In this document: positions 18,850-44,122 of the stretch, one piece after another
How the letters are laid out: every line of letters starts with the position of its first letter
How positions within the stretch are numbered: position 1 is the first letter of the stretch
From: Stigmatella aurantiaca DW4/3-1
Lineage (GTDB): Bacteria > Myxococcota > Myxococcia > Myxococcales > Myxococcaceae
Assembly: GCF_000165485.1 (NCBI RefSeq)
Contig: NC_014623.1
Coordinates: 5,536,893-5,600,892, forward strand
Reading direction: 5' to 3'
DNA: 64,000 nucleotides
Position numbers and translations under genes: made by a program
Notes under the pieces: generated by a model
Seen by the model: only the letters and a program-made list of their open reading frames with translations
Database searches by the model: none
Told to the model about the DNA's origin: nothing

Positions 18850-19089
18850 AAGGGCAGGCAAGCTAGTCCACCCTCACGAGGGGTCAACCGCCTTGCTCGG
18901 TCCTTCGGGCCCTCCCGTACGGCCGCCGAGAAGTGCTGGCGCCCTTCCCCGCTTGCCCATAGTAGAAGCGCGGCATGATGCGGTGCGGCGCGAGGGCACC
19001 CGGCGGCCGGGGAGCCGACCGCCCCCCCGCTGGAGTCACGCCCGTCAGACAGTCCATCACTCCCACACCTGGTGAGGACAGCCCACCAC

Positions 19090-19148: not shown

Positions 19149-19235
19149 CCGTCCCAGAACTTTAGGCTTGTGTACCGCCGGAGCAGAGCCCCCGAGAGGA
19201 CCCTCTCGCGGCAAGACCGGCAGGAGCGGAAGACA

Positions 19236-20357: not shown

Positions 20358-20385
20358 ACCTCTGAGCGAAAGCCCCCTGACCACC

Positions 20386-23528
<3,143 letters not shown>

Positions 23529-23532
<4 letters not shown>

Positions 23533-24056: not shown

Positions 24057-24063
24057 CCCACCC

Positions 24064-24083
24064 GGGCCCACCGGCACGGGCCC
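24064..24083 (+). terminator. GC hairpin after the MarR gene
   Basis: GGGCCC at 24064-24069 and again at 24078-24083 (self-complementary arms) around the loop ACCGGCAC, eight bases after the MarR stop. There is no T-run. It could reduce readthrough into the TolC gene 100 bp downstream or act as an RNA-processing site. Confidence 0.4.
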
Positions 24084-24187
24084 TTCATCCGTCCAGGTCC
24101 GGCGCATCTTCCCAGCGGGTCCCTGAAGAGGGCCCGCCGCGCCCCCTGTGTACTCTTTCCCTTCCCCGAAGCCGTTTCTCGACCTTT

Positions 24188-25609: not shown

Positions 25610-25631
25610 CCTCCTTCGAAGGACTCCGCAG

Positions 25632-26918: not shown

Positions 26919-27037
26919 GGAATACAGGGAAAACCGTCCAGTTCTACTGGAAAGAGGCGCCCCTCTGGCTGCGCGGGGAATCCCCCTTCGATAGGCTTCT
27001 CTTGGAGACCCCACCGGCAGGGGCTCCAGGGAGCACC

Positions 27038-30000
27038 ATGGCCAGTCGGGCGGGCTACACGTTTCACGAGACCATTCACGAGAGTACGCGCTCGATGCTC
27101 GTTCGGGCCACGCGGCTCAAAGATGAGTGTCCCGTCATCCTCAAGCTGCCTGGAAGCGACTACCTGGACCGGCGCCGGACACTGGAGATCCAGCGTGAGT
27201 ACGCCATCGCCCGCCGTGTCGAGGGCGAAGGCATCATCCGGGTGTTCGGCGTGGAGGAGTTCACCGACCGGGCGGCGCTCGTCCTCGAGGATTTTGGCGG
27301 CCGATCGCTCCACCACCTCCTGGAGGAACGCGGAGCGCTGGGCGTGGACATGTTCCTCGACTACGCCATCCGCATCACCACGGCCCTGGGGCACATCCAC
27401 CGGCATGGCGTCATCCACAAGGACATCAAGCCGCAGAACATCATCGTCAATCCCGACACCGGGATGCTCAAGATCGCCGACTTCTCCATCTCGGTGGCCA
27501 TCGCGCTGGAGTCCGTCACCCCCGACAACCCCACGGTGCTGACGGGAACCCTGGCCTACATGGCGCCCGAGCAGACCGGACGCATGAACCGCGGCGTGGA
27601 CTACCGCGCGGACTTCTATGCCCTGGGCGCCACCTTCTTCGAGCTGCTGACGCACCGCCACGTCTTCGAGTCCGAGACGCCCCTGGAACTGCTCCACGCC
27701 CACGTGGCGCAGATGCCTCCGTCGCCGCGCGAGCTCGTCCCGTCCATCCCGGAGCCCATCTCCGCCATCGTCGTCAAGCTGCTCTCCAAGGATCCCGAGG
27801 CCCGGTACCAGACCGCCTTCGGCCTCATCGCCGATCTGGAGGAGTGCCGGCGCCGTCTCCACGAGTGGCAGCTCGTGTCGCCCTTCTCGCTGGGCACCTC
27901 GGACCGAACGCACCAGTTCCGTTTGCCGCAAGGCTTCTATGGGCGCGCCTCGGACGTCGCCCAGCTCAAGGAGGCCCACGAGCGCGCCGTGAAAGGCGGC
28001 AGCGAGCTGCTGCTCATCACCGGCTCGCCGGGAATCGGCAAGTCGTCGCTCGTCAACGAGCTGCACCGGGTGACGGCCGCGAACCGGGGCCTGTTCGCCA
28101 CGGGCAAGTGTGATCCGCTCCAGCGCGGCGTGCCGTTCGATGCCGTCCACCAGGTCCTGGTCCACCTCGTCCAGCAGCTGCTCACCGAGGGCGGACCGGA
28201 GGTGGCCCGCATGCGCGCGCGCTTGGAAGAGGCCCTCGGCGTGAACACGTCCGTGCTCGTCCAGGCCGTGCCCGAGGTGCGCACGCTGCTGGGCGAGCAG
28301 CCCCAGCCCATCCCCCTGCCCTCCTCCGAGTCCCGCAACCGCCTCAACCGCGTGCTCGTGCAGGCGCTCCAGGCCTTCACGCAACCCGAGCGGCCGCTCG
28401 TCGTCTTCCTGGATGACCTTCAGTGGGCGGACGTCGCCACGCTCTCCCTGATCCAGTCCCTGGCGGTCGAGCCCGACAGCCATCACCTGCTGCTCATCTG
28501 CGCCTACCGGAGCACCGAGGTCTCCGCCTCCCACCCGCTCACCCTGGCGCTGGGAAGCCTGCGCTCCGCCGAGAATCCCCTGCGCGAGATCTGCGTCTCC
28601 CCCCTCGGCATCGAGGAGGTGGTCCGGATGGTTCGCGAGGCCACCTCCGCCGAGCCCCTGAACGCGCTGGAGCTGGGCCAGCTCATCCACGCGCGTACCG
28701 GCGGCAACCCCTTCTCCGTGCGCGAGTTCCTGCGCTTCCTGCACGACCAGCGGCTGCTGCGCTTCGACGCGAGCGCGGGCCGGTGGGATTGGGATCTCGT
28801 CCAGATCGACGCCCGGGAGATCCCCAACGACGTGGCCGATCTGATGGCGGCGGAGATCCGGCGCCTGCCCCCCGAGACCGGGGACCTGTTGCAGTTCGCG
28901 GCCTGCCTCGGCGGTGTGTTCCACTTCAAGGATCTCGCCGTGGTCCACCAGACGACGGCCGCCGAGACCGCGCGCAGGCTGTGGAGCGCCATCGAGCAGG
29001 GGCTCGTGCTGCCCCTCAACAAGGACTACCTGCTGCTGGATCCCCAGGGCGGGCTCACCCTGCCCCCGGATCTGGAGCTGACCTTCCGCTTCTTGCATGA
29101 CCGGGTCCGCCAGGCGGCCTACCTGCTGATTCCCTCCGAGGCGCGCGCCACGCGCCACATGCAGATTGGCCTGCGGTTGCTCGAGGACGCCCGGGCCGCG
29201 GGCATGATCGAAGAGCGCGCCTTCAGCATCCTGCCCCACGTGGCCCATGCCCCGGAGCAGGTGAGCTCCGCCGCGCTGCGCCTGGAACTGTCCGGCCTGC
29301 ACCTGAAGGCCGGACGGCAAGCGAAGACCTCGGGGGCCTACCGCACGGCCTGCACCCTCTTCCGCACGGGCATCGAGCTGCTGCCCCCCACCGCCTGGAA
29401 GGACGAGTACGAGCAGATCCTCGCACTCCAGCTCGAGCTGGCCGAGTCCAGCTACCTGGCCAGTGACTTCGAGGCGGCGTCCGCGGGCTTCGCCACGCTG
29501 CTGGAGCAGGCGAACTCCGTGGAGCAGAAGGCGAGCGTGCTCGCGATGCGGGCCACCCTCGCCTCGCTCAACAGTCAGCACACGGAGGCCATCCAGATTG
29601 GCCTCGAGGGCCTGCGGCTCTTGGGCGTGGACGTGCCCGCCACCCCGGGCCAGGCCGAGTTGGGCGCGGAGCTGACCGCCGTGGCCGAGGGGCTCCAGGG
29701 CCGGCGGGCGGCGCAGCTGCTCGAGCTGCGGCAGATGAGCGATCCGACCCGGGAGCTCACCCTCAACCTGCTGGCCAGCATCGCGGCCTCCGCGTACATG
29801 GTCCATCAGGGGCTCTTCGCGCTGCTGGCGCTGCGCATTGTCCGGCTCTCCCTGGAGCATGGCCACAGCAGCCTGTCCGCCTTCGGCTACGTCATCTATG
29901 GCGTCTTGCTGTCCTCCGTCATCGATGATCCCGCCACCGGCCACGAGTTCGGCCAGCTCGCCGTGGATCTGTCCGCACGCTTCCGTGCGCCCATGCTGCA

Positions 30001-32485
30001 CGCCCGCGTCCGCTACCTGCGCGCGGGGCTCATCGATCACTGGACGCGGAGTGCGCGCGAGGGGATCGCCGAGTTCACCGAGGCCTACAAGGGCTCGATG
30101 GAGAGCGGTGATTGGATCTACGCCGGGCACTGCGTCATCGTGCGGCTGTGGCGCCGCCTCGCGGTGGGAGACCCACTGAAGGATCTCCTGGCGGAGAACG
30201 AGCGCTTCATCGAGTTCCTCCAGACGAAGCAGGATCCGGATGCCCTGGAGATGTTCCTCGCGGCGCACCGCACGGTGCTGGCACTCACCGGCACCGAGGA
30301 ACCCCTGGACTCGCTGCCCCGGAGCGAGGGGAACACGGCGCAGGCCTACCAGGCGCTGGGCGAGCTGGAGCGGCTCTACCTGCTGAGCACCCCCCAAGAG
30401 GCGCTGGCCAAGGCCGAGCAAGCCGAGCCACTGGTCCCCTTCGTGACCGGCCTGTTCCAGGTGGCCACGTATGCCTTCTACCATGCGCTGAGCGCGGCGG
30501 CGGTCGCCACCGACGCCAGCGAGGAGCGGCGCGAGGAGTTGCTCCAGGTGGTGGATCGGCACCGGGCCTTCCTGGAGAAGTGCGCCCTGCGCAATCCCGA
30601 GAACTTCTCGCCCTACCACCTGCTGGTCAGCGCCGAGAAGGCGAGGGCCAAGGGATTGGATGACGAGGCGCTCGTCACCTTCGAGCGGGCCATCGCCGCG
30701 GCCCGCACCAGTGAGTTCTTGGGCGTGGAGGCGCTGGCCTGCGAGCTGACCTTCCGCTTCCTCACCTCCCGGGAGCGCCGCATCATCGCCTCGGCCTACC
30801 TGCTCGAGTCCCTCTACGCCTACGAGCGCTGGGGCGCCACGGGCAAGACCCGGCTGCTGACCCAGGAGCAATCCACCCTGCTGCTGTCCCACGGCTCCAC
30901 GCTGCGCCACTGGAACCCCAAGTCCCGCACCGGGACGACGACCACCACGGATCGCGGCACCACGACCCAACCGAGCCCCAGCCCCAGCCAGAGCACGCAC
31001 CCGGCCACGCACCCCACTACGCCCACCGGCTCCGAGTCCCTCGTCGAGTCGCTGGACATGGCCTCGGCGATGAAGGCCTCCCAGGCCATCTCCAGCGAGA
31101 TCCTCTTCCCGCAACTCGTCGACAACCTCATCCACGTCATCATGGAGAGCGCCGGCGCCCAGCGGGGCGTGCTGGCCCTCAAACGCGGGGCGGACTACTT
31201 CGTCGAGGCCTCGGGCGAGGTGAGGCGCCGCGACGTGCAGCCGGAACCACCGCACCTGCTCTCCCAGAGCGACGCCCTCTGCCTCCTCATCGTCGAGCAG
31301 GCGCTGCGCACCGGGTCGCCCATCCTTCTGGATGACGCGTCCGCCACGGCCCCCTTCCTGCAGGACGAGTACGTCCTCCGCCATGGGGTGCGCTCGGTGC
31401 TCTGCATGCCCATCCGCCACCGGGGGCAGACGCTTGGGCTGTTCTACCTGGAGAACAACCTGACGCCGGGGGCCTTCAACGCCAGCCGGCTCAAGGTGCT
31501 GGGCATGCTCACGGCCCAGGCCTCCATCTCCATCGAGAACGCGGAGCTGTACCGGCGGCTGGAAGACTACAGCCACACGCTGGAGGAGCGCGTCGCCGAC
31601 CGGACCCAGGAGCTGCACAGCAAGAACGCGGAGCTGCACCGGGCGCTCGAGACGCTCAAGGCCATGCAGACGCAGATCATCACCCAGGAGAAGCTCGCCT
31701 CCCTGGGCTCGCTCACCGCGGGCATTGCCCACGAGCTGAAGAACCCGCTGAACTTCGTGACCAACTTCGCCTTGCTCTCCACGGACCGGGTGCGGGAGTT
31801 GCGCCAGGAGATCAACCCCCTGATCAAATCCACCGCCGCGAAGCAGCGGGAAGAGCTCGACTCGTTGCTGGATGAGCTGGAGGTGAACACCCAGAAGATC
31901 CGCGAGCACGGCCAGCGCGCCAGCGGCATCATCGATGGGATGCTGCAACATGCGCGCAGCAACCGGGGCGAGCGGCGCCGCACCAACGTGAACCAGCTGG
32001 TGGAAGAGGCCGTCCGGCTCGTCCACCACGGCTTGAACGCCAAGAGCTCGCGGCGCAACGTGGTGATCGAAACGTCCTACGACACCACGGTGCCCGAGGT
32101 GGACCTGGTGTCCGACGACATCCGCCGGGTGGTGCTCAACCTGGTGGACAACGCCTGCTACGCGGCGAGCGACAAGCTCCGGCCCTCCGAGGCCATCGAG
32201 GAGCCCCGGGTGAAGGTGTCCACCCGGTGGACGGGCAGCAACGTGGAGATCCGGGTCCGGGACAACGGCCAGGGCATCCCCGTGGCGGCGCGGGACAAGC
32301 TCTTCACGCCCTTCTTCACCACCAAGCCCACCGGGGAAGGCACGGGGCTGGGGCTGTCCATCAGCCACGACATCGTCGTGGTCTCCCTGGGCGGCAAGCT
32401 GGTGGTGGAATCGGAGGAAGGCCAGTACGCGGAGTTCATCGTCGTGCTCCCGAGTGGCCCCCGCGCCAACGCCCCCCGCGCCTGA
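27038..32485 (+). CDS. Giant Ser/Thr kinase-ATPase-GAF-histidine kinase
   Basis: 1815 aa from ATG 27038 (GGGAG 5 nt before). Order: a Hanks-type kinase domain (about 14-285) with HKDIKPQNIIV (Asp129) but DFS instead of DFG; an AAA/NB-ARC-like predictor ATPase with P-loop GSPGIGKSS at 329-337 and Walker B VVFLDDLQWAD; a long helical TPR-like middle region; a Thr/Ser/Pro-rich linker (about 1300-1335); a GAF domain from about 1340 (ISSEILFPQLVDNLIHVIME); a coiled coil; HisKA with His1565 in GIAHELKNPLNFV; and HATPase_c (NLVDNACYAAS, DNGQGIPV, GTGLGLSIS). This architecture is known as multi-sensor signal transduction kinase in myxobacteria and cyanobacteria. It converges on the flavoprotein/ADC cassette with only 16 bp between stops, and no response regulator is adjacent. 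Confidence 0.92.
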   Translation: MASRAGYTFHETIHESTRSMLVRATRLKDECPVILKLPGSDYLDRRRTLEIQREYAIARRVEGEGIIRVFGVEEFTDRAALVLEDFGGRSLHHLLEERGALGVDMFLDYAIRITTALGHIHRHGVIHKDIKPQNIIVNPDTGMLKIADFSISVAIALESVTPDNPTVLTGTLAYMAPEQTGRMNRGVDYRADFYALGATFFELLTHRHVFESETPLELLHAHVAQMPPSPRELVPSIPEPISAIVVKLLSKDPEARYQTAFGLIADLEECRRRLHEWQLVSPFSLGTSDRTHQFRLPQGFYGRASDVAQLKEAHERAVKGGSELLLITGSPGIGKSSLVNELHRVTAANRGLFATGKCDPLQRGVPFDAVHQVLVHLVQQLLTEGGPEVARMRARLEEALGVNTSVLVQAVPEVRTLLGEQPQPIPLPSSESRNRLNRVLVQALQAFTQPERPLVVFLDDLQWADVATLSLIQSLAVEPDSHHLLLICAYRSTEVSASHPLTLALGSLRSAENPLREICVSPLGIEEVVRMVREATSAEPLNALELGQLIHARTGGNPFSVREFLRFLHDQRLLRFDASAGRWDWDLVQIDAREIPNDVADLMAAEIRRLPPETGDLLQFAACLGGVFHFKDLAVVHQTTAAETARRLWSAIEQGLVLPLNKDYLLLDPQGGLTLPPDLELTFRFLHDRVRQAAYLLIPSEARATRHMQIGLRLLEDARAAGMIEERAFSILPHVAHAPEQVSSAALRLELSGLHLKAGRQAKTSGAYRTACTLFRTGIELLPPTAWKDEYEQILALQLELAESSYLASDFEAASAGFATLLEQANSVEQKASVLAMRATLASLNSQHTEAIQIGLEGLRLLGVDVPATPGQAELGAELTAVAEGLQGRRAAQLLELRQMSDPTRELTLNLLASIAASAYMVHQGLFALLALRIVRLSLEHGHSSLSAFGYVIYGVLLSSVIDDPATGHEFGQLAVDLSARFRAPMLHARVRYLRAGLIDHWTRSAREGIAEFTEAYKGSMESGDWIYAGHCVIVRLWRRLAVGDPLKDLLAENERFIEFLQTKQDPDALEMFLAAHRTVLALTGTEEPLDSLPRSEGNTAQAYQALGELERLYLLSTPQEALAKAEQAEPLVPFVTGLFQVATYAFYHALSAAAVATDASEERREELLQVVDRHRAFLEKCALRNPENFSPYHLLVSAEKARAKGLDDEALVTFERAIAAARTSEFLGVEALACELTFRFLTSRERRIIASAYLLESLYAYERWGATGKTRLLTQEQSTLLLSHGSTLRHWNPKSRTGTTTTTDRGTTTQPSPSPSQSTHPATHPTTPTGSESLVESLDMASAMKASQAISSEILFPQLVDNLIHVIMESAGAQRGVLALKRGADYFVEASGEVRRRDVQPEPPHLLSQSDALCLLIVEQALRTGSPILLDDASATAPFLQDEYVLRHGVRSVLCMPIRHRGQTLGLFYLENNLTPGAFNASRLKVLGMLTAQASISIENAELYRRLEDYSHTLEERVADRTQELHSKNAELHRALETLKAMQTQIITQEKLASLGSLTAGIAHELKNPLNFVTNFALLSTDRVRELRQEINPLIKSTAAKQREELDSLLDELEVNTQKIREHGQRASGIIDGMLQHARSNRGERRRTNVNQLVEEAVRLVHHGLNAKSSRRNVVIETSYDTTVPEVDLVSDDIRRVVLNLVDNACYAASDKLRPSEAIEEPRVKVSTRWTGSNVEIRVRDNGQGIPVAARDKLFTPFFTTKPTGEGTGLGLSISHDIVVVSLGGKLVVESEEGQYAEFIVVLPSGPRANAPRA

Positions 32486-32501: not shown

Positions 32502-34676
32502 TCAGAAGTCGCTCTCGCCGGAGATGTGCTCCGGGTGGCCGGAGATGGCCTGGGCCGCCTGGAGCCCGGACATCACCGCCGCCTCCACGCACCCGCAGTT
32601 GAGCCCCGTGAGCGTCCAGTCTCCGGCCAGGTACAGCCCGTTGTAATCCGACTCGTGCGAGCCGAGCCGGGCCGCGGTCGAGCCGGGCAACGACAGCACA
32701 TAGCGCTCGGATGGATCGATGTTGGCCCTCCAGAACTGGCTGTCGAAGCGCGCGGCGCCCTCGCGCGAGCTGTTCAGGTCCACGAGCAGCTCCCAGTCCA
32801 AAGCCGTGGGGTTGTAGCCCGTCGCCCGGGGCCACAGCGTCCCCGTCCGCTCCCGGAACCAGCGCAGGGAGATCTCCTTCAGCCGCTCGTGCTCCCGCCG
32901 GGGAAAATCCGTGTCGGAGAAAGGCGGAATCTCGGGCGCGTCGATCAGCGGCGCGGTGAAGTAGGCCAGGTCCTTGACGGTGCCCGGCGGCCACTGCTCG
33001 CGCGGCAGAAGCTGGGTCATGTCCGCGTAGGTGTTCAGCGGCTCGGAGTAGGCGGTGGCCACGGTGGGCTCTTCCCGCCACCCCAGTCCCTCCAGGCTGC
33101 GCGACAGCCAGAGCTGCACGCCCAGCGTCTGGTTCGTCTGGAGCGTCTCCACCATCCGTTGCCAGCGCGGGCTGTGCGCCAGCAGTTCCTGACACAGGTA
33201 GGGAAAGGCGCCCAGGGAGATGCCCATCACCAGCAGATCGTAATCCCGGCCGCGCTCCAGGGTGACGGGCCGCTCCCCCTTCCAGGCATGCGCCCAGGAG
33301 GATTCCAGGTGGATGCCAGAAGCTTCGAGATCCTCGCCATCGACGATCTGCTCATAGCGCGGCCGGTCGGGCCAGCAGGGCAGACCGAGCACGTCCACGA
33401 GGGGCTGGTACCCTGCCGCCGGATCCTTCAGCGCCACCTGCTGGATCATCTCCACCCGGTCCACGTGGCGGGTCAGTGAATTGGCGCGCAGCTGGGTCAC
33501 CTTGTGGAAGAAGCGGAACTCCACCCCGCGCCGCTTCAGCACCTCGTAGAGGGGCGCGAACACCACATCCCCCATGCCCGCGCGCATCTTGTAGAAGATG
33601 GCGCCCTTGTACGTGAGGCCCATGCGCAACAGGAAGCGCGTGGCCACGCCCGCCGCCAGGAACTGCTGGGCGGGGTCTCCCTTCACGTAGGCGAACAGCA
33701 GGGTGTACATCCCCTGAACGATGGGGGCACGGTACAGCGTGAAGTCGCTGGCGCCGTGGCGCAGGAGCCAGGCCCGGAAGTCCTCGCCATCGAGGCCGTT
33801 GAAGCCCGTCTCCAGCACGCCATCCCGCAGGATGCCCCGGGCAATGACGAGCCCCAGCTCCAGCAGCGCCCAGAGCTTGCGCACCTCGCTGTTTTCCCAG
33901 TTCCGAACGATGCGCGACGACAGCCGGCTCCACGCCTCCTCGACGAGCCACAGAAGCGCTTGGAGGTGATTCGCGTCCGGCGCGCCCCGCCCTCGCGGGA
34001 GCCGGGCGGCGAGCTGCTGGGCCAGCTGGAGCGTGCGGCCAATGCCGGGCACTCCCCCCTTGGGGATGAGCGAGAGCCCCAGGGTGCGCATCACCCCCTC
34101 GACCTTGCTGGGCAGCGACTCGGGGGCGGGCGTCGCCGCCGCGAGACCGGCGCCCGGCCCCCCGCGCAGCTGATCCACCAGCAGCTCGAGCCCCTTCTCC
34201 AGGGTATCGGCGAGCGCATGCGGCTCCATGCCTTCCCCCACCCCTGGCTCCTTCGAGTTGGTGGGGAAGTGGAAGTTCCAGTCCACCCAATCGGTGGGCG
34301 TGCGCTCGAACAGCGTGATGAGGGAATGCTTCTTGAACGCCTCGTCCAGGGTGGCCAGCGGCGCCCCCCGGGGACGGCCCAGCTCCCCATAGACTTGCCG
34401 CATCATCCGGAAGGCGTTCTCGTAGTGGCCCATCCAGACGTGGAGCCCGTGCTCCTCGATGCGCTGGGCGAAGTCCTTGTTGCGCCCGCTGGCCCCTTTG
34501 CCGCCCAGCCGCCAGCCCAGGCTGTAAAGGATGACCTCGTACTGGTCCTTCCAACCCGGGTAGTTGGTCAACCCGAACGCCGCCGTCATGGCCCCCACGC
34601 CGCCGCCCAGAATGACGATCCTGCGCTTGCGGCCGGGGCGCCCCGCCTGTCCCGAACTCATCACCCTGTCGTTCAT
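32502..34676 (-). CDS. FAD-dependent oxidoreductase, desaturase/amine-oxidase fold (paralogue B)
   Basis: 724 aa. The N-terminal dinucleotide-binding site is RIVILGGGVGAMTAAFGL (residues 19-36), followed by GWRLGGKGASGR and RIEEHGLHVWMGHYENAF (72-89). The C-terminal FAD-closing motif is LYLAGDWTLTGLNCGCVEAA, as in phytoene/zeta-carotene desaturases. It is about 150-250 aa longer than those enzymes, the extra length being a helical insert in the middle. No signal peptide. The start ATG 34676 overlaps the stop of paralogue A (ATGA), so a second Met at residue 6 is less likely. It is clearly homologous to its upstream neighbour along its whole length. Substrate unknown; a lipid or isoprenoid is a family-based guess. 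Confidence 0.8.
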   Translation of the reverse strand: MNDRVMSSGQAGRPGRKRRIVILGGGVGAMTAAFGLTNYPGWKDQYEVILYSLGWRLGGKGASGRNKDFAQRIEEHGLHVWMGHYENAFRMMRQVYGELGRPRGAPLATLDEAFKKHSLITLFERTPTDWVDWNFHFPTNSKEPGVGEGMEPHALADTLEKGLELLVDQLRGGPGAGLAAATPAPESLPSKVEGVMRTLGLSLIPKGGVPGIGRTLQLAQQLAARLPRGRGAPDANHLQALLWLVEEAWSRLSSRIVRNWENSEVRKLWALLELGLVIARGILRDGVLETGFNGLDGEDFRAWLLRHGASDFTLYRAPIVQGMYTLLFAYVKGDPAQQFLAAGVATRFLLRMGLTYKGAIFYKMRAGMGDVVFAPLYEVLKRRGVEFRFFHKVTQLRANSLTRHVDRVEMIQQVALKDPAAGYQPLVDVLGLPCWPDRPRYEQIVDGEDLEASGIHLESSWAHAWKGERPVTLERGRDYDLLVMGISLGAFPYLCQELLAHSPRWQRMVETLQTNQTLGVQLWLSRSLEGLGWREEPTVATAYSEPLNTYADMTQLLPREQWPPGTVKDLAYFTAPLIDAPEIPPFSDTDFPRREHERLKEISLRWFRERTGTLWPRATGYNPTALDWELLVDLNSSREGAARFDSQFWRANIDPSERYVLSLPGSTAARLGSHESDYNGLYLAGDWTLTGLNCGCVEAAVMSGLQAAQAISGHPEHISGESDF

Positions 34677-36835
34677 CGGTACCAGAACGCCTCTCCGGAG
34701 ATGGGCAGCGGCTGCCCGGTCACGGCGCGGAACGCGAGCATGCCGGAGATGACGGCCCCCTCCGCCGCGCCAATGTAGAAGCCGTTGTCCACCCAGTCTC
34801 CGCAGATGGCCAGGTTGACGAAGCCCGTGCGATCCGGACGGATCCGGGCCTTGGACGTTCCAGGCAACGCCAGCGTGTAGCGCTCGCTCGGATCCACATT
34901 GGCGCGCCAGTACTGCGTCTCGAAGCGCGCCTCCCCCTGCTTTCCATTCGAGGGCACCAGCAGCGTCCAGTCGAACACGCCGGGCGCCTTGGGCTGGGTG
35001 GCGCGCGGCCAGAGCACGCTGATGTCATGGCTGAGAAAGTGAACCGCATCCCTCCGGGCCCGCTCCGTCTCCTGGGCCGGAAAGCCGTGCGCCTCCGGCG
35101 GAGGGGGCCGCGAGGGGCCGGGTTGGGGACCGCAGAAATAGGCCACGGTGCGAGGCGCGTTGGGGAGCGCCCATCCCTCCCGGGGCAGCAGGTTCGTCAT
35201 GTCCGCCCACGTATCGATGGGCTCGATGTACCCGGTGAGCATGGGGCTGCCCACGGTCCAGCCCAGGGAACTCAAGTCCTTCGAGGTCCAGAGCTGGAAG
35301 GACTGCGTCTGGATGGTGGCCACATCCGCCACCATCCGCCGCCACTGGGCGCTCTTTTCGAGGAGGCTCGGACACAGGAAGGGCACCGAGGCCACCGGAA
35401 TGCCAAAGACCACATGGTCAAAGTCCCGCCCCACTTCGAGGACCCGCTCCTCCACGCTCTTCCACGGCGTGTAGAAGGACTCCAGGTTCACGCCCTCCTG
35501 GAGGAGCTGCTCACTCTGGACGATCTGGTCCCACAAGGGCTGGCTGGGCCAGCACGGCAGGTTCTTCACGACGATGAGGGGCTCATACTCCTGCGATGGA
35601 GCCTTCAGATCCACCTGGCGCCCGATGCGGATTTGCCGGATCTGCGGGCGGCCCGTCACATCGTCGGCGATCAACTCCTCCACCCGGTGGAAGAACTCGA
35701 AGCGGACGCCGTTCTTCCGGCAGGCTTCGTAGAGCGGCACGAAGACGACGTCCCCCATGGAGGCGGCGAACTCGTAGGCAATGTGCCCCTGGTAGGTCAG
35801 CCCGATGCGCAGCAGCGCCCGGAGCGCGCTGCCCGCGCCGATGGATTGCCGGTCGGGATCGCCGTCCACCATGGACATGGCCGCGTCGTAGATGGCGCGG
35901 GACAGCGCCGAGCGCAGCGTCAGCTCACTGGCCCCGTGCTTCGCCAGCCACTCGCGGTAGTCGAGCTCCTCGATGGCATTGAACCCCTTGGCGAACACCT
36001 GGTCCGAGAGGATGCCGACGAGGTTGGCCACCAGGAAGTCCAGCCCCACACAGAGCTGGAACAGCAGGAAGTTCGACTCGAGCAACGGGGTGAACCGGGA
36101 CCACAACCAGCGCAGGAAGCTCCGGAGCGTGCGGAGGAACAGGTCATCCGGCACCGCCCGCGCCTCCACATCCACCTCCACCCGAAGCACCAGAAGATGC
36201 GCCTGGGCCTGCTCCAGCAACGCCTGGCCCTCTCGCACGATCTCCCGCACGAACTTGAGCAGGTCGGCCCCCCGCTCCAGGCTCTCCGACAGCACGGTCT
36301 TGAGAACACCGAGCGCCTCGTGGCCGGGCCCTTGCGCCGCCGTGCGCACCAACAGTCCCTGGGTCCTGTCGAAGAGCTCGCGGAGCGTCTGAAACAGGGC
36401 CTCGAGGATCTCCTGGACGGAGTCGATGCTGTCGGACTCGCCCGGGGAGCGGGCGTTGGACGGAAAGGGAATGACCCAGCGATGCCAGGTGCCCTGAACA
36501 AGCTCCTGCAAGGCCATCAGATCCCGGGGCAGAAAGGCCTGCTCGAAGGTGGCCAGCGGCATCGTCGCGGGCCGGTTCATCTCCCGGTAACACTCCCGCA
36601 TCAGCCGGAAGGCGTTCTCGTAGAAGCCCCAGAAGACGTGAAGCCCATGCTCCTCGATGCGCCCGTTCGGCCCCCGGCCACTGGCCCCCTTGCCCCCCAG
36701 CCGCCAGCCCACCTGGTAGACGGTGACTTCGTACTGCTCGCGCAGCTCGGGCGTGCGGGACAGGTAATAGGCCGTGGTGAGGGCCCCCGCCCCGCCTCCG
36801 AGCACCACCACCTTCTTGCGCGGGGCCGCCGTCAT
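34673..36835 (-). CDS. FAD-dependent oxidoreductase, desaturase/amine-oxidase fold (paralogue A)
   Basis: 720 aa from ATG 36835, set by an ATGA overlap with the preceding gene; a long open frame upstream of it is in the ADC gene and has no reason to be translated. FAD site KVVVLGGGAGALTTAYYL (8-25), then GWRLGGKGASGR and RIEEHGLHVFWGFYENAF (59-76). The C-terminal motif is LAICGDWVDNGFYIGAAEGA followed by SGMLAFRAVTG. The N-terminal 80 residues and C-terminal 60 residues align easily with paralogue B; the middle (about 130-330) is helical, rich in Leu/Arg/Glu and more diverged. It may work with paralogue B as a heterodimer or on successive steps. It is coupled on both sides to its neighbours, so expression in fixed stoichiometry is likely. 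Confidence 0.82.
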   Translation of the reverse strand: MTAAPRKKVVVLGGGAGALTTAYYLSRTPELREQYEVTVYQVGWRLGGKGASGRGPNGRIEEHGLHVFWGFYENAFRLMRECYREMNRPATMPLATFEQAFLPRDLMALQELVQGTWHRWVIPFPSNARSPGESDSIDSVQEILEALFQTLRELFDRTQGLLVRTAAQGPGHEALGVLKTVLSESLERGADLLKFVREIVREGQALLEQAQAHLLVLRVEVDVEARAVPDDLFLRTLRSFLRWLWSRFTPLLESNFLLFQLCVGLDFLVANLVGILSDQVFAKGFNAIEELDYREWLAKHGASELTLRSALSRAIYDAAMSMVDGDPDRQSIGAGSALRALLRIGLTYQGHIAYEFAASMGDVVFVPLYEACRKNGVRFEFFHRVEELIADDVTGRPQIRQIRIGRQVDLKAPSQEYEPLIVVKNLPCWPSQPLWDQIVQSEQLLQEGVNLESFYTPWKSVEERVLEVGRDFDHVVFGIPVASVPFLCPSLLEKSAQWRRMVADVATIQTQSFQLWTSKDLSSLGWTVGSPMLTGYIEPIDTWADMTNLLPREGWALPNAPRTVAYFCGPQPGPSRPPPPEAHGFPAQETERARRDAVHFLSHDISVLWPRATQPKAPGVFDWTLLVPSNGKQGEARFETQYWRANVDPSERYTLALPGTSKARIRPDRTGFVNLAICGDWVDNGFYIGAAEGAVISGMLAFRAVTGQPLPISGEAFWYR

Positions 36836-37818
36836 GAACCACTCCAGAGGAGGTGACCTTCGTTGAGCCGGAAATCGAACTGGAGCTGAATGCCCCCCGC
36901 GATGGACAACTGCCCCCGGGGGTTGAGCTCCAACCCGAGATCCTCCGCGAGCGGCTGGCTGGCCAGCGAGTCGATTGTCAGCCGAAAGCGCCTCGGCAGC
37001 AGCCGCAGCCCCCGGAGTTTGAGCTGGTCGGCCTCCGCGCCCACGATGGCCTGGTAACAGGCCCCATCGGACGTGCCGACCCCCCGGAACTGCTTGAGAA
37101 AGACCATGGGAAGGGAGGGCCGGAACAAGAAGTCCAGGACCCGCGAGCCCGCCTCGAAGTTGAAGTCGAGCAGCGTGCCCAGCTCGTCCCGGAGCAGCCC
37201 CACCTGCTGAAGCAAGTTGTCTGCCTGGAAGGCCCCCGCCACATCCTGCGTGAAAGGCTGGCCATCCGCCCGCTCGAGCAGCAGCAACCGCGCCACCTCG
37301 GCGCGCGTGTCCGGACTGAAGGTGCGGTACGCCAGGGTCCGCACCTCGAACGCCCCCGCCTCCTGCCCCGTGCCGGGCATGCGGATGTCGGCGGCCTGCT
37401 TCGGAAAGCCGTAGATCTCCCGCCCCCCCGCCACCGCCCACGGGTTGTCCGTGTAGATGTAGGGAACGAACAACTCCACGCGCTTGCACAGCTCGTCCGC
37501 GCCGTGCCGCCGGTAGTCGCTGGCGGCGATCCAGAACGTCACCTCCCGCTCCGAGGTGTAGCCCCAGTCCTGGAACCCTTCCACCGCCGAGGTCAGCCGC
37601 CCCACGTGCTGGAAGGTCAGCATGACGAAGGGCAGCCGCGGGCGGTAGTGCACCGCGCCGCCCGAGGGCTCATTGAGAAACGTGTCACAGAGCGCCTGAA
37701 GCCGGTCCTGCTTGCCCTTGAGGAAGAAGATGTACTGGGTGACGTCCTGGCACAGGCTCGGCGGCGGGAAGACCTGGAGCGATGGGCTGTCGATGTATTT
37801 CCTGCCCGGCGGGCGCAT
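36832..37818 (-). CDS. Acetoacetate-decarboxylase-fold protein (copy 1)
   Basis: 328 aa from ATG 37818, which overlaps the preceding stop by one base (TGATG) and has GGGAGGGG upstream. The acetoacetate decarboxylase (ADC) signature is present: AVAGGREIYGFPKQAADI, with Lys140 at the position of the Schiff-base lysine (Lys115 of clostridial ADC). The following lysine (Lys116), which lowers the pKa of the first, is Gln here. Upstream blocks FVMLTFQHVGRL and VTFWIAASDYRRHG are consistent with the ADC beta cone. The protein is about 80 aa longer than clostridial ADC (244 aa). It may be a decarboxylase, an aldol/dehydratase-type imine enzyme like MppR, or non-catalytic; I cannot choose. Confidence 0.78.
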   Translation of the reverse strand: MRPPGRKYIDSPSLQVFPPPSLCQDVTQYIFFLKGKQDRLQALCDTFLNEPSGGAVHYRPRLPFVMLTFQHVGRLTSAVEGFQDWGYTSEREVTFWIAASDYRRHGADELCKRVELFVPYIYTDNPWAVAGGREIYGFPKQAADIRMPGTGQEAGAFEVRTLAYRTFSPDTRAEVARLLLLERADGQPFTQDVAGAFQADNLLQQVGLLRDELGTLLDFNFEAGSRVLDFLFRPSLPMVFLKQFRGVGTSDGACYQAIVGAEADQLKLRGLRLLPRRFRLTIDSLASQPLAEDLGLELNPRGQLSIAGGIQLQFDFRLNEGHLLWSGS

Positions 37819-38621
37819 CACCCCTCCCGGCCGTGCCAATTGAGGGGCTTGGGCATCACGAAGCGGACCCGGGGCAGGTACTGCACCACCTGGGGCGTGT
37901 AGCGCATCTGCACGAGCGCGCGGCCCAGCGTGCTCTCGCTGGAGAGCGAGAACTCATCGCCCTCGCCGAAAAGCCGCAGGCGGGACTCCATCTCGAAGTG
38001 CATGACGTTGCGTGTCTGGAAGACTTCCTTGGGGGTCACGAAGCCGACGGAGAGACGCTGGTTCTGCGCGGGCTCCTCGGGGTAGCGCACACGGCCTTGA
38101 ACCAGCCGCTTGCCCTCACAAGCGACGTCGAACTGGCACCAGGGCGTGGAGAAAGCGATGTTCACGGGCTGGGGCGACGGGTGCTTGGCGTGGCCGTGGA
38201 CCTCGCGGCCAAAGTCGATGGGAACCTGCTGATCGAGGATCAACTTGTAACAGAAGGTGGTGACGTCAGGATGCGCCAACGGCTGGAGCAGCTCCAGCGG
38301 CGCGTGGACCGGCACCTCGAGCGGCTTCAGCGACACCATGAAGGTGACGATGAGCTCCTTGTAAGGACCGCAGGTGGTGTCGTGGTAGTTGGCCACCCAG
38401 ATCGATACGGCACACTGGCCATGGCCGATGGACACGGGCTGGTAGCGCTGTCCCGCGAGCAAGCTCCGGACAGGTTCGATGTCCGCCGGCCCATGGAGCA
38501 CCACCATGTCCGCGGAGCGACAGACATAGGGAACCGGGCAGACAGCGCCCGAGGAGAGCTCGTACTCCTCGGTGGAGGGATAGGCGTCGAACAGCGAGGA
38601 CTCGGTCAACGGCATTTGCAT
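37818..38621 (-). CDS. Acetoacetate-decarboxylase-fold protein (copy 2)
   Basis: 267 aa, first gene of the four-gene cassette, ATG 38621 with GAGG about 9 nt upstream. The ADC-type motif is IDFGREVHGHAKHPSPQPV, keeping Lys146 at the Schiff-base position while the adjacent residue is His instead of the second Lys. The family block SIWVANYHDTTCGPYKELIV matches the strand preceding the active site. It ends with a Pro/Arg segment PRVRFVMPKPLNW. It is much more distant from copy 1 than a recent duplication would be. Its upstream neighbour on the same strand is the kinase-cyclase fusion, 84 bp away with a small GC hairpin between. Confidence 0.77.
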   Translation of the reverse strand: MQMPLTESSLFDAYPSTEEYELSSGAVCPVPYVCRSADMVVLHGPADIEPVRSLLAGQRYQPVSIGHGQCAVSIWVANYHDTTCGPYKELIVTFMVSLKPLEVPVHAPLELLQPLAHPDVTTFCYKLILDQQVPIDFGREVHGHAKHPSPQPVNIAFSTPWCQFDVACEGKRLVQGRVRYPEEPAQNQRLSVGFVTPKEVFQTRNVMHFEMESRLRLFGEGDEFSLSSESTLGRALVQMRYTPQVVQYLPRVRFVMPKPLNWHGREG

Positions 38622-38705: not shown

Positions 38706-40703
38706 CTATTCCGGACCTTTGGCCGAAAGAGCCTCCACGGAAGGGCTTCCCTGCGTATTCGGCTTCGTCGCGGACTCATCGGGCAGCGTCACCGCATTGT
38801 ACGGCCCAATGACCTCGTAGACGTTCACCGGCTCATGGCTCCCCGGAAGGAGACGCGCTGTGAGCAGTTGGCACTTGAAGCTCTCGGCCAACCGCTGGCT
38901 TAGCCGCTCGACGACCAGGATCTGATCCCGCCCGGCCTGGGAGGCCAGGAGGGCCGCGGTGGTCACCACGTCTCCCAGCACCGCGTACTCCAACCGGCCG
39001 AGATCATGGCTGCCCAGCCCACCGGAGACCACCTTGCCCGAATCCAGCCCGATGCTGACGCCATGCGCATAGGGGGATTGCTCTCCGGACCGGAAGGCCC
39101 GCGTCTGGAGCTCCTGGCGGATGGACATGCACGCGCTCAGGGCCCGGTACAGGTGCTCGTGACCGCGGAACACAGCCACCACCGTGTCACCGATGAACTT
39201 GTCCACCACCCCCTGACGCGACGTCAGCTCCGGGACGATGATGTGGATGATGTCGTTCAGCTTCCGGACAATCCCCGCGGGCGCCTCGTTGCGGGTGGCG
39301 GCGGTGAACTCCTTGAAGTTGATGAACACCACCGTGGAGTCCACCCGCTCCCCGGACAGGGCCTCGCGCCCCTGCGTCAATGTGCGCAGCAGCGACAGGA
39401 CCGTGCTCTGGACGAAGAGCGCCAGCAGCTCGTTCTCCTTGATGGAGCGCGCCATCTGGCGCAGCTCCCTCACGTGCCGCAGCGTCTTGTTGAGCGTCGT
39501 CTCGAGATCCTGGAAGTCGAGCGGCTTGACCAGGAAGTCGTACGCCCCGCGATTCATCGCCATGCGCAGGTTGGTCATGTCGCTGTACGCCGAGACGATG
39601 ATGACCTTCGCGAGCGGATAGGCCTCGCTGACGCGGCTGAGCAGGGCCAGACCGTCCATGCGCGGCATGTTGATGTCGGTGACGACCACCTCGATGTCGG
39701 GGTACTGGCGCAGCTTCTCCAGCGCGTTCTCGCCATCGGAGGCGAAGAAGAACTGGTAGACGTTGTCGCGGATCTGCCGGCGGAAGGCCTGCTTCAGCAG
39801 CATCTCCACGTCCGGCTCGTCGTCCACCACGAGGATCCGCGCCGCCTGGGGCCGCTCCGCCGTCTTCACGATCGTCGCGAAGGCGGCGACCATCTCGTGG
39901 GCGGACCCGAAGCGCTGGGTGGGATCCGGGTGCAGGGCGCGCATGAAGAAGCCGTCCAGCTCCGGGCTCAACCCCAGCTTCAGGGTGGAGGGCGCCACGT
40001 CCGGAGGGTGGAAGGTGCCAGACAGCAGGGGCCCGACCAGCTCGATGGGAAAGGGAAACTGGCCGGTGAGGGCCCGGTAGAGCACCACCGCGATGGACCA
40101 GAGATCGCTGCGGTGATCGAGGGCGCGATCGCCGCGGATCTGCTCCGGGCTCATGTATCGCAGCGTGCCGATCATCCCATCCGAAGGTGTATCGAAGGAG
40201 ACTTCCTCGGGGCGCTGAACCAACCGGGCCAGGCCAAAGTCGAGGATCTTCACCACCTCTTCGCCATCGACGCGGGCCAGGAAGATGTTGGCGGGCTTGA
40301 GATCGCGGTGGACGATGCCGGCCGTGTGCGCGGCGGTCAAGGCCTTGCCCACCTGGAGCAGCACGCTCGCCACGGCGGCGGCGGGGACCTGCGGCTGCCG
40401 CCGCAGCCGGGCCTCGAGATCCTCCCCGTCGAGCAGCTCCATGACGATGTACGGGTCCTCGCCCTTGTCCAAGCCGAAGTCGTAGATCTGCACCACGTTC
40501 GGATGACGGAACTGGGCAATGGCCCGCGCCTCTTGCTCGAACTGGCGCCGCGCCGAGTCCGAGGAGATGCGCAGCGAGGTGGTCAGCTTGAGCGCGACCT
40601 TGCGATCCAATTGGGGATCATGCGCCAGCCAGATGGCACCCATGCCACCCCCGGCGATCTTCTTCTCCAGGATGTACCTGCCACCCACCTGGCGTCCCGA
40701 CAT
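38706..40703 (-). CDS. Ser/Thr kinase-receiver-class III nucleotide cyclase fusion
   Basis: 665 aa joining three signalling modules. The Hanks-type kinase (about 10-270) looks active: glycine loop IAGGGMGAIWLA, Lys39 in VALK, Asp134 in HRDLKPANI, and DFG at 155-157. A receiver (about 288-405) has acidic pair VDDEPD, Asp343 in VTDINMPRMDG and Lys393 in LVKPLD. After a helical linker comes a guanylate/adenylate cyclase homology domain (about 455-620) with DKFIGDTVVAVF (Asp506) and the GKVVSGGLGS region. The first metal-binding Asp is replaced: VVFINFKEF has Asn462 where FxD is expected, so cyclase activity is doubtful. No membrane segment. It reads toward the ADC/flavoprotein cassette and may be its regulator. 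Confidence 0.9.
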   Translation of the reverse strand: MSGRQVGGRYILEKKIAGGGMGAIWLAHDPQLDRKVALKLTTSLRISSDSARRQFEQEARAIAQFRHPNVVQIYDFGLDKGEDPYIVMELLDGEDLEARLRRQPQVPAAAVASVLLQVGKALTAAHTAGIVHRDLKPANIFLARVDGEEVVKILDFGLARLVQRPEEVSFDTPSDGMIGTLRYMSPEQIRGDRALDHRSDLWSIAVVLYRALTGQFPFPIELVGPLLSGTFHPPDVAPSTLKLGLSPELDGFFMRALHPDPTQRFGSAHEMVAAFATIVKTAERPQAARILVVDDEPDVEMLLKQAFRRQIRDNVYQFFFASDGENALEKLRQYPDIEVVVTDINMPRMDGLALLSRVSEAYPLAKVIIVSAYSDMTNLRMAMNRGAYDFLVKPLDFQDLETTLNKTLRHVRELRQMARSIKENELLALFVQSTVLSLLRTLTQGREALSGERVDSTVVFINFKEFTAATRNEAPAGIVRKLNDIIHIIVPELTSRQGVVDKFIGDTVVAVFRGHEHLYRALSACMSIRQELQTRAFRSGEQSPYAHGVSIGLDSGKVVSGGLGSHDLGRLEYAVLGDVVTTAALLASQAGRDQILVVERLSQRLAESFKCQLLTARLLPGSHEPVNVYEVIGPYNAVTLPDESATKPNTQGSPSVEALSAKGPE

Positions 40704-41944: not shown

Positions 41945-44122
41945 TCAGGAGATCTTGGGGTCCGTCCGGGGCTCGCCCCCCAGCGCGGAGGAGACCGCGT
42001 GGTGGCCGTTGGCGGGCTTGTCCTCCAGGCCCCCCTTCTCCTGGGCGTTCTTCTCCAGCAACACCTTGGCCGGCGGCTGTTCGTCCGCGGCGCGGCGGGC
42101 CTCCCGCTCCTTGTAGCGGCGGATGGCGGGGGCCATGATCTCACCGATGAGCGTGCGGTAGTCCATGCCAGCGCCCTGGGCGATGAGCACCAGATCGCTC
42201 CAGCCCGGCGTCAGGCCCGGCAGCGGGTTGCACTCGATGAAGTAGAGGCGCCCCTTGTCATCCATGCGGAAGTCGATGCGCGCCACGTCCCGGCACCCGA
42301 GCGCCATGAACGAGCCACGCGCCGCCGCGCGCAGGCGCTCCAGCAGCGCGGGCTCCAGCTTGGCCGGCGCGTCGTAGCGGATGCGGTCGGTCCAATCGAG
42401 CTTGTGCTGGAAGCTGTAGACGGGGTTCTTCTCTTCCTTGTCCAGGAAGACGATCTCCATCGGGGGCAGCACGCGCGGCCGTCGCTCGCCCAGCAACCCC
42501 ACGGTGAACTCGCGCCCGCCGATGTACTCCTCGACGAGGGCCGGCTGCTTGTACTTGCTGGCGATCTCCTTGACCACCTCGCGCAGCTCCGCCTCGCTGT
42601 GGCAGACGCTCTTGCTCACCACGCCCTTGGAAGAGCCCTCCGCCACCGGCTTCACCATCAACGGGAAGGTGAAGTCCTTGTTGAGCCGCTCCTTGCCCGT
42701 GAGCATGAGCTGGAAGTTGGGGGTGTGGATGCCCGCCTGGCGGACGATCTTCTTCGCCAGCGCCTTGTCCAGCGCGATGGAGAGCGTGGCCGGATCGCTT
42801 CCCGTGTAGGGAATGTCCAGCAGTTCCAGCATGGCCGGCACCTGGCTCTCGCGGTTGCGGCCCTTGAACCCCTCGGCGATGTTGAACACCACGTCCAGCG
42901 GGGTGCTGGCCAGCACGCTGGGCAGCTCCTGGTTGGCCTCCAGATCCACCACCTCGTGGCCCCAGGAGGCGATGGCCTCGCGAATGGCCTGGAGCGTGGC
43001 CGGCGAGTCGTACTCGGCCTCGCTGTCCTCGGAGGCATCCACCGTGGGCTTCACGCGCTTGACGTTGTAGGTGAACCCCACGCGCAACGGGCCCGTCTTG
43101 CGCGCGGGCTTGCCCTGGCGCCGGGCCGAGTCCTTGATCTTGTAGCGCTTGGCGGCGCTCTGGATGATGGAGTTGATGACCCCATCCAGGTGCAGCCCAT
43201 CGAGCTCGGCGGAGGCGTAGATGCCCGCGCCCGGCTCCAGGCTGGGCAGCGCGTTGATCTCCAGGAAGTACGGCACGCCGGCGTCGCTGAGCCGGAAGTC
43301 GATGCGGCCCAGATCCCGGCAGTCCAGCACCTGGAAGATCGTCTGCGCCATCTTGCGCACGTCCTCCGCCGTCTTCGCGGAGATGTTCGCGGGGGCGCGC
43401 ACGCGCACGGCGCTGTGGTGCTTCGTCTTCAGCTCGTAGTCGTAGATCGGGTACTTGCGGCCCACGGTGGCGGCCGGGTCAATCACGTACTCCACCGGCG
43501 ACAGGACGCCGTCGTAGTCGTTGTCCACCGCGGCCAGGAACGGCACCGTGAGATCCTTCCCGCCGATGTACTCCTCGACCAGCACGCCGGCCGGGTACTT
43601 GGCGAGCGCCTGGGTCACCTTGGCGCGCACCTCGTCCAGCGTCTCCGCGATGGAGTCCTGGGTGATGCCCTTGGAGGAGCCCTCGAAGTTGGGCTTGACG
43701 ATGACGGGAAAGCGCAGGTTCTCCGCCGTCAGCTCGCTGAGCTTCTCCACGTACTGCCAGCCCGGCGTGCGGATGCCGTGCTTGGCGAGGATGAGCTTGG
43801 TGAGCTGCTTGTCCAGGGTGACCGCCAGCGCGTACGCATCGCTGCCGGTGTAGGGGAAGCCCAGCTCGTCGAAGAGGGCCGGATAGAAGGCCTCGCGGAA
43901 ACGGCCCCGGCGCCCCTCGGCGGTATTGAAGATGAGATCCGGGCTGTAGGCCTCCAACCGGGCCACGGTGCGCGAGGCGGGACCGCTCACCTCGAAGCGC
44001 TCCAGCCGGTGGCCGAGCCGCTCGATGGCGCCCGCCAGGGCGTTGACCGTCTCCTGCGTGTCGAACTCCGCTTCTTCTTCCAGATCGGACAGCCTGAGGT
44101 TGTGCGTCAACGCGATGCGCAC
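41945..44122 (-). CDS. Tandem D-alanine-D-alanine ligase-like ATP-grasp protein
   Basis: 725 aa from GTG 44122 (AAAGGG upstream), made of two Ddl-like units, each about 340 aa, where normal Ddl is 300-360 aa. Unit 1 (1-340): IFNTAEGRRGRFRE, FPYTGSDAYALAVTLDK, FPVIVKPNFEGSSKGI (139-153), LVEEYIGGKDLTV, IDFRLSD and FLEINALPSLEPGAG. Unit 2 (345-690): VFNIAEGFKGRNRESQ, IPYTGSDPATLSIALDK, FPLMVKPVAEGSSKGV (487-501), VEEYIGGREFTV, IDFRMDD and FIECNPLPGLTPGWSD. ATP-grasp and metal-binding motifs look intact in both units. A tail of 45 polar residues follows. It is the last gene of a coupled operon behind the RDD protein. It may ligate two D-amino-acid or peptide substrates; genuine peptidoglycan Ddl is usually single-domain. 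Confidence 0.88.
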   Translation of the reverse strand: MRIALTHNLRLSDLEEEAEFDTQETVNALAGAIERLGHRLERFEVSGPASRTVARLEAYSPDLIFNTAEGRRGRFREAFYPALFDELGFPYTGSDAYALAVTLDKQLTKLILAKHGIRTPGWQYVEKLSELTAENLRFPVIVKPNFEGSSKGITQDSIAETLDEVRAKVTQALAKYPAGVLVEEYIGGKDLTVPFLAAVDNDYDGVLSPVEYVIDPAATVGRKYPIYDYELKTKHHSAVRVRAPANISAKTAEDVRKMAQTIFQVLDCRDLGRIDFRLSDAGVPYFLEINALPSLEPGAGIYASAELDGLHLDGVINSIIQSAAKRYKIKDSARRQGKPARKTGPLRVGFTYNVKRVKPTVDASEDSEAEYDSPATLQAIREAIASWGHEVVDLEANQELPSVLASTPLDVVFNIAEGFKGRNRESQVPAMLELLDIPYTGSDPATLSIALDKALAKKIVRQAGIHTPNFQLMLTGKERLNKDFTFPLMVKPVAEGSSKGVVSKSVCHSEAELREVVKEIASKYKQPALVEEYIGGREFTVGLLGERRPRVLPPMEIVFLDKEEKNPVYSFQHKLDWTDRIRYDAPAKLEPALLERLRAAARGSFMALGCRDVARIDFRMDDKGRLYFIECNPLPGLTPGWSDLVLIAQGAGMDYRTLIGEIMAPAIRRYKEREARRAADEQPPAKVLLEKNAQEKGGLEDKPANGHHAVSSALGGEPRTDPKIS

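Follow-up and report, generated by a model that had tools for sequence, protein, structure and literature searches.

What do two acetoacetate decarboxylase (ADC)-fold proteins and two desaturase-type flavoproteins do in a single, tightly packed gene row of a myxobacterium? The question is posed by a 64,000-nucleotide stretch of the Stigmatella aurantiaca DW4/3-1 genome, which we refer to as the window (C1:5536893-5600892 in a 10.26 Mb single-contig genome) and in which the genes ADC-A, ADC-B, FAD1, and FAD2 follow one another on the same strand (Table 1). Our analyses support a module whose core is the flavoprotein plus ADC-B, and the recurrence of this core pair, side by side or fused, in very different bacteria suggests an undescribed two-step lipid-modifying machine. 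On balance, we lean toward the view that the cassette is a lipid-modifying module in which a membrane-associated, phytoene desaturase-like flavoprotein is physically coupled to an ADC-fold enzyme.

An earlier note on this DNA had described the stop-start overlaps of the four genes as TGATG, ATGA, and ATGA, and rereading the junctions bears this out (ADC-A/ADC-B, GGTGATGCG; ADC-B/FAD1, TTCATGACG; FAD1/FAD2, CGATGAACG). The motifs GGKGASGR and IEEHGLHV..G.YENAF, given there as common to FAD1 and FAD2, are found in each protein, and the two sequences are 40% identical across 725 aligned columns. The statement that the flavoproteins are 150 to 250 residues longer than desaturases was roughly right; measured against desaturase models of 453, 474, and 504 positions, the excess comes to ≈215 to 270 residues.

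A flavoprotein and ADC-B form the core of the cassette

Across 145 genomes of the order, the FAD1-type flavoprotein is present in 22 and ADC-B in 15, all within those 22. ADC-A occurs in eight, each of which also has the flavoprotein and ADC-B; seven of the eight keep the gene order of the window, and the eighth (G121, locus L081) has another layout, with a flavoprotein-ADC-B fusion, a second flavoprotein, and ADC-A. Because orthologs of all four genes, free of internal stops, stand in the same order in seven of the 145 genomes (the genome of the window included; six are of its genus and one of another), the cassette is not a product of chance. In the genome scan, the named relative with the best match is Hyalangium versicolor (Archangiaceae, Myxococcota). 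Both at L008 (Hyalangium) and at L088, which comes from another genus of the family, the first two junctions overlap or abut too, and the FAD1/FAD2 overlap is lost (gap 13-15 bp). Only close relatives have ADC-A and the four-gene order, and the core reaches other phyla, so the conserved unit is the flavoprotein with ADC-B rather than the four-gene set proposed in the earlier note.

Profile searches of 195 Myxococcota genomes place ADC-B in 15 genomes (17 places) and the flavoprotein in 23, and all 15 ADC-B genomes are among the 23. Every one of the 17 ADC-B places lies within ≈120 bp of a flavoprotein match and nine share its open frame, which argues that the ADC gene is no incidental neighbor. 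Six of these nine fusions were read in the DNA (L075, L081, L082, L084, L089, and L090); the other three (G043, G077, and G109) are assigned from equal open-frame lengths. The flavoprotein domain comes first in L075, L081, L082, L084, L090, and the Planctomycetota locus L010, and the ADC domain comes first in L089 and the gammaproteobacterial locus L013, so that either domain order is seen among the fusions, which span three phyla. The genome of the window itself has a second flavoprotein-ADC-B copy, which is fused (C1:6075255-6078203). Adjacency and natural fusion show a one-to-one coupling of ADC-fold protein and flavoprotein, and for this pair the claim of a distinct module stands; far from failing to co-occur in other genomes, ADC-B is found strictly beside the flavoprotein in Myxococcota.

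The module is patchy, since one genome of the window's own genus (G081) matched none of the three queries. A locus from the same family (L085:6561-10913) has two divergently transcribed flavoproteins of the FAD1/FAD2 kind, and no ADC-B match was obtained in its genome.

The pair recurs outside the Myxococcota

A scan of genome contigs with FAD2 returned 65 loci, which were picked by FAD2 patterns and are therefore not an unbiased set; some are short. ADC-B is present in the DNA of 14 of them, including loci from Hyalangium, Pseudoalteromonas, Colwellia, Paraglaciecola, Dyella, Bradyrhizobium, Caulobacteraceae, Planctomycetota, and Rokuibacteriota, and in 13 of the 14 it lies beside the flavoprotein or forms one protein with it. 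Locus L086, with a weak ADC-B score (E 7e-6) and no match in another reading of the region, is counted as without ADC-B. Among plasmids, FAD2 relatives occur in 11 records and ADC-B in nine, all nine of which also carry the flavoprotein; the annotation was examined for four records. The genes of Azospirillum argentinense read flavoprotein, outer membrane protein transport protein (presumably of the FadL family), ADC-B, flavoprotein, and AAA ATPase. A plasmid gene of Qingshengfaniella annotated as an "NAD(P)-binding protein" (L079:11983-14889) encodes a flavoprotein that ends in a third kind of ADC domain, a divergent one that scores 34.5 bits, above the Pfam cut-off, and retains the lysine. 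In an alphaproteobacterial sample, ADC-B was found in one of 385 genomes, the one used as the sample center; ADC-B is therefore rare there, and co-occurrence is not countable without bias in that sample.

Several loci have features of their own. The neighbors of the Qingshengfaniella fusion gene are a cyclase gene and a Crp/Fnr regulator. At L071:7005-10168, from a Paraglaciecola metagenome-assembled genome, the start is of the ADC-FAD kind and the flavoprotein is split between two frames, through either a genuine break or a fault in the assembly. Neither the 434-residue C-terminal extension of the Rokuibacteriota L012 flavoprotein nor a neighbor gene at L080 has a Pfam match at E 0.1.

Predicted folds of the two partners

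The AlphaFold2 model of FAD1, built from an alignment of 45 flavoproteins, has a mean predicted local distance difference test (pLDDT) score of 88.2. Among solved structures it is best matched by rice phytoene desaturase (PDS; 5mog), with a Foldseek E value of 9.1e-18, a Z score of 29.4, and a root mean square deviation (rmsd) of 2.9 over 453 of 467 residues, versus Z 24.1 for the next-best structure; this fold match is that of the FAD1 model. A profile of the 45 family members searched against the PDB has 5mog as its sole match at E ≤1e-6, and none of the structure matches listed contains both flavoprotein and ADC domains. FAD1 shares with PDS (CrtP) and zeta-carotene desaturase (ZDS) its fold, the N terminus that binds flavin adenine dinucleotide (FAD), and a GLHxFxGxYxN segment, and the invariant flavoprotein columns cluster in that N terminus and in the segment RIEEHGLH..G.Y.N.

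Unlike PDS, however, the family has an insert of 99 to 143 residues between the columns of FAD1 residues 132 and 274. In FAD1, residues ≈140-277 make up this extra, mostly helical stretch, with pLDDT of ≈40-60 for roughly residues 160-230. The insert is weakly conserved (block means 0.17-0.34 versus 0.44-0.64 elsewhere), is 19% identical between FAD1 and FAD2, and contains the most hydrophobic 19-residue stretch of FAD1, which begins at residue 257. A further difference lies in the partner, as the cassette flavoprotein is paired with ADC-fold proteins, whereas rice PDS is described in an excerpt of its structural study as forming homotetramers (PMC5703498).

Both ADC-A (34.8 bits) and ADC-B (38.7 bits) exceed the cut-off of Pfam PF06314 (29.8 bits), and the ADC-B model matches solved ADCs, in agreement with the earlier assignment of two ADC-fold proteins to the cassette. 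The structural evidence covers the model of ADC-B, which was built for this protein by itself from 15 sequences (pLDDT 78.9). It aligns with the ADC 3c8w over 236 residues (Z 20.6, rmsd 3.5) and with the aldolase-dehydratase of Streptomyces bingchenggensis, Swit_4259, and MppR at Z 18.0-18.7. ADC-B therefore resembles the ADC superfamily (ADC, Swit_4259, the Streptomyces aldolase-dehydratase, and MppR) in fold (Z 17-21), in its Pfam ADC match, and in the position of the lysine, yet differs from the solved members in its low identity (11-17%), its greater length, the lack of an adjacent second lysine, and its tie or fusion to a flavoprotein.

The lysine itself is retained in both proteins. Lys140 of ADC-B aligns with the GFPKK lysine of the solved Streptomyces enzyme (6eej/4zbo), which we take to be the Schiff-base lysine of that enzyme; this assumption fits the structure titles of two relatives of ADC-B, a Schiff-base complex (4zbt) and a covalent complex (6eej). 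Lys146 of ADC-A is kept in all five rows of its alignment, including that of a distant ADC from the same genome (L076). This third ADC gene (L076:8692-15075, C1:8121692-8128075) stands in a row with genes for an alpha/beta hydrolase, a patatin-like phospholipase, and a GMC flavin oxidoreductase; it is thus again near a flavoprotein, though one of another family, which suggests a second lipid-related pairing.

The two flavoproteins of a locus belong to different clades

A 92-row tree of the flavoprotein family (quick method, LG+G4) places FAD1 and FAD2 in different clades. Two sister clades (support 99 and 100) each contain one flavoprotein per multi-flavoprotein locus, from Bradyrhizobium (three loci), an alphaproteobacterium, Azospirillum, and the Myxococcota loci L081, L083, and L086. 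Eight of the nine loci represented carry one member of each clade (L055 has only one), which argues that both flavoproteins of such a locus have distinct functions and traveled together. One of the eight, L086, is without a clear ADC-B; sets of two different flavoproteins with ADC-B turn up repeatedly, in Bradyrhizobium, Azospirillum, and myxobacteria. The distribution of ADC-B on the tree is clustered, with six changes versus ≈28 in shuffles, a figure to which near-copies contribute. Support for the deep forks is low (36), and several long branches come together, some of them in the two sister clades, so that the deep joins are unsafe.

An origin of FAD1 and FAD2 by recent tandem duplication was considered and rejected, given their different clades and long separate stems.

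A proposed reaction sequence

Oxidation and decarboxylation by the cassette are plausible. The flavoprotein would withdraw a hydride from a long hydrophobic substrate drawn from the membrane, and the electron acceptor would probably be a quinone, by analogy with phytoene desaturase, for which an excerpt of the rice study describes liposome assays, quinone dependence, channeling between subunits, and a proposed flavin-only mechanism (PMC5703498). The oxidized, carbonyl-bearing product or intermediate would be handed directly to ADC-B, where Lys140 would form a Schiff base leading to decarboxylation, retro-aldol cleavage, or dehydration; ADC-fold enzymes offer decarboxylation or aldolase-dehydratase chemistry for this second half of the mechanism. 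FAD2 may perform a further oxidation, and ADC-A, in the lineage of the window, may add a further Schiff-base step. We infer complex formation, direct transfer, a membrane substrate, and the order of the steps, and decarboxylation, reactions in sequence, and heterodimer formation by FAD1 and FAD2 may likewise apply. In a wider form, which we put forward tentatively, two distinct flavoproteins and an ADC-fold enzyme might constitute a widespread membrane-surface complex that oxidizes and then cleaves or decarboxylates a lipid in one passage, controlled by or signaling to the adjacent giant kinase, cyclase, and AAA proteins.

A number of observations weigh against such a sequence. ADC-B is missing from the DNA covered at 51 of the 65 loci scanned, and eight of the 23 flavoprotein-bearing Myxococcota genomes are without it. 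A search through 49 genomes in which the flavoprotein locus has no ADC-B, many of them incomplete metagenome assemblies, gave no match anywhere (E 1e-5) in 48; in the 49th, ADC-B adjoins another flavoprotein copy. The flavoprotein can therefore work without ADC-B, as many family members have none. At L012, the gene for a 1,340-residue AAA protein separates the flavoprotein from ADC-B. The FadL-type neighbor, a hint of a lipid link, comes from one annotated record. The Foldseek template modeling (TM) score of the FAD1 model is 0.52 by query length, sequence likeness to phytoene desaturase is limited to the FAD-binding ends, and the ADC-B model is weakest near the catalytic loop (pLDDT <50 for residues 132-137). 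Finally, a true acetoacetate decarboxylase has a second lysine directly after the Schiff-base lysine, and this position is occupied by Gln141 in ADC-B and by His147 in ADC-A; as no second lysine stands beside Lys140, ordinary acetoacetate decarboxylation is not implied.

Signaling neighbors of the module

The cassette is flanked by genes for two large signaling proteins, listed in Table 1 with the four cassette genes. The upstream gene ends 84 bp before ADC-A, and the open frame of the convergent gene encodes 1926 residues, with a true start that is probably further in. Similar proteins are found at L008 and L088. At both, the same-strand gene immediately upstream encodes a kinase-receiver-cyclase-like protein (670 residues in L008 and 694 in L088), and a giant-kinase-like protein is the next gene after FAD2 in L088 and one gene further, behind a 477-residue histidine kinase, in L008.

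Table 1 Genes of the cassette and its flanking signaling genes, in window coordinates
Feature	Position	Strand	Description
ADC-A	38621-37818	minus	267 residues, acetoacetate decarboxylase fold; putative Schiff-base Lys146 (GREVHGHAK)
ADC-B	37818-36832	minus	328 residues, acetoacetate decarboxylase fold; Lys140 (GREIYGFPK)
FAD1	36835-34673	minus	720-residue desaturase-type flavoprotein; variable helical insert at ≈residues 140-277
FAD2	34676-32502	minus	724-residue flavoprotein, paralog of FAD1
Upstream Ser/Thr kinase - response-regulator receiver - nucleotide cyclase protein	38706-40703	minus	665 residues; domains from Pfam; possible regulator
Convergent giant Ser/Thr kinase - AAA_16 - GAF - histidine kinase protein	26705-32485	plus	domains from Pfam; possible regulator or sensor

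Such neighbors raise the possibility, which we regard as real though well short of probable, that the module makes or senses a lipid signal, its ligand being read by the adjacent kinase, cyclase, or AAA proteins or its enzymes being switched on by them. Across 81 loci, signaling-type genes account for 68 of 160 immediate neighbors versus 28 of 759 other genes, and with one locus taken per 60%-identity cluster the counts are 27 of 71 versus 18 of 333, with such a neighbor in 24 of 35 clusters. In Rokuibacteriota, the AAA gene of L012 lies between the flavoprotein and ADC-B in one close same-strand row (L012:8025-16426). The size of the enrichment is inflated, however, because the reference domains came from such neighbors, which makes the count partly circular, and signaling proteins are abundant in these genomes. 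A signaling neighbor is found at 14 of 24 loci with ADC-B, leaving 10 that have none, and at 50 of 57 loci without it (the window is filed among the 57, as the gene caller dropped the overlapping ADC-B frame). The kinds of neighbor also vary by lineage: kinase-AAA-histidine kinase, AAA with a cyclase match that narrowly misses the cut-off, GGDEF, Trans_reg_C-TPR, and TIR-TPR proteins. The association fits plain regulation of the module equally well.

TIR-TPR or Trans_reg_C-TPR proteins stand beside the flavoprotein at many proteobacterial loci (for example, L044:6386-8020 and L099:1716-3428). A role in defense was considered and set aside, the four cassette proteins matching none of the PADLOC families at E 0.001; the kinase-receiver-cyclase protein has 40 PADLOC matches, mostly to PD-T4-6 and all on its kinase domain.

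Two other features of the window deserve mention. A POTRA/Omp85-type outer-membrane protein (Pfam) is encoded at 25494-26918 on the plus strand; its gene directly follows a resistance-nodulation-division (RND) efflux set (18975-25609) and precedes the giant kinase gene. On the minus strand, positions 41945-44596 encode an 883-residue protein with two ATP-grasp stretches that matches the D-Ala-D-Ala ligase C terminus (Pfam).

Lipid binding and carotenoid synthesis as alternative roles

The coupling of the two partners could also have a noncatalytic basis. The ADC-fold proteins might be subunits that bind or deliver lipid, supplying the flavoprotein or retaining its product, with the lysine binding a carbonyl lipid without turnover. 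The missing second lysine of ADC-B and the many family flavoproteins that manage without ADC-B are compatible with this role, as is the divergence of ADC-B, which outside two close relatives is 23-33% identical to its homologs, versus 32-42% for most flavoproteins compared with FAD1. An ADC-family protein is also listed in the proteome table of cyanobacterial lipid droplets, the part of that report considered here (PMC12923008). The conservation pattern nevertheless looks catalytic: all 25 aligned ADC-B sequences have Lys140, Lys242, Gln256, and Asp315, which are among eight invariant columns that also include Gly132, Gly137, and Gly295, and the solved relatives bear titles that denote Schiff-base and covalent complexes. 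A purely binding role is, in our judgment, unlikely, and we continue to favor an ADC-fold enzyme coupled to the flavoprotein.

A less probable alternative still is that the flavoproteins are divergent desaturases of the carotenoid or squalene pathway (PDS, ZDS, or HpnE), with the ADC genes as incidental neighbors, a notion with which the strict adjacency and shared frames described above are hard to reconcile. The best fold match is indeed a plant PDS, and at E 1e-5 the 45 family members match HpnE (44 of 45), ZDS (37), and PDS (17) in NCBIfam. HpnE (TIGR03467) is the best NCBIfam match of both cassette flavoproteins, but FAD1 scores 44.8 and FAD2 57.5 bits against a cut-off of 283.05; PDS and ZDS come next or close behind and are all far below cut-off as well, with 28.9 bits for FAD1 and 16.5 for FAD2 against the 569.4 of 15-cis-phytoene desaturase (TIGR02731). 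The Pfam cut-offs that the flavoproteins pass are those of general families only (NAD_binding_8, and Amino_oxidase for FAD2).

CrtI-family desaturases belong to the same broad flavin-oxidoreductase superfamily as FAD1 and FAD2, yet neither protein is among the 12 matches to TIGR02734 (CrtI family) in the genome of the window at E 0.001. CrtI-family desaturases above the TIGR02734 cut-off are encoded at three places elsewhere in this genome, and a profile search gave no HpnE above cut-off in it; for these reasons ordinary carotenoid desaturation probably does not depend on the cassette. We accordingly do not favor a host carotenoid or hopanoid enzyme, with scores so far below the cut-offs and CrtI-family genes elsewhere. 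The earlier note had allowed that one pair might prove to belong to carotenoid or sterol synthesis; FAD1 and FAD2 fall far below the PDS, ZDS, and HpnE cut-offs, and sterol synthesis was not searched for. Least of all do we credit an ordinary operon of unrelated enzymes that chance has kept together in one genus, since the exact four-gene order was indeed found only in the window's genus, one other genus of the family, and Hyalangium L008, but fusions in both orders across three phyla and the strict adjacency of ADC-B in Myxococcota contradict it.

Implications for bacterial lipid metabolism

Searches of open-access PubMed Central full text aimed at the flavoprotein-ADC pair, a scope outside which subscription papers and preprints fall, gave no description of it, in line with the earlier note, to which no described pathway of such a gene content was known. 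Excerpts of two papers show a Streptomyces ADC (PMC9866976) and a Bradyrhizobium ADC (PMC4070704) in other gene contexts. Both folds are known, and it is their close partnership, together with fusions in both orders, that points to a reaction sequence without a described example in open-access papers. The natural fusions provide a ready test object, a single polypeptide with two active sites that are expected to act one after the other. Should the substrate be a membrane isoprenoid or a fatty acid, the module would reveal a lipid class or lipid signal of soil and marine bacteria, among them myxobacteria, Bradyrhizobium, Azospirillum, and Pseudoalteromonas. If true, this reading would also give a function to proteins that are annotated, in the records examined, only as "NAD(P)-binding protein," "FAD-dependent oxidoreductase," or "acetoacetate decarboxylase family protein."

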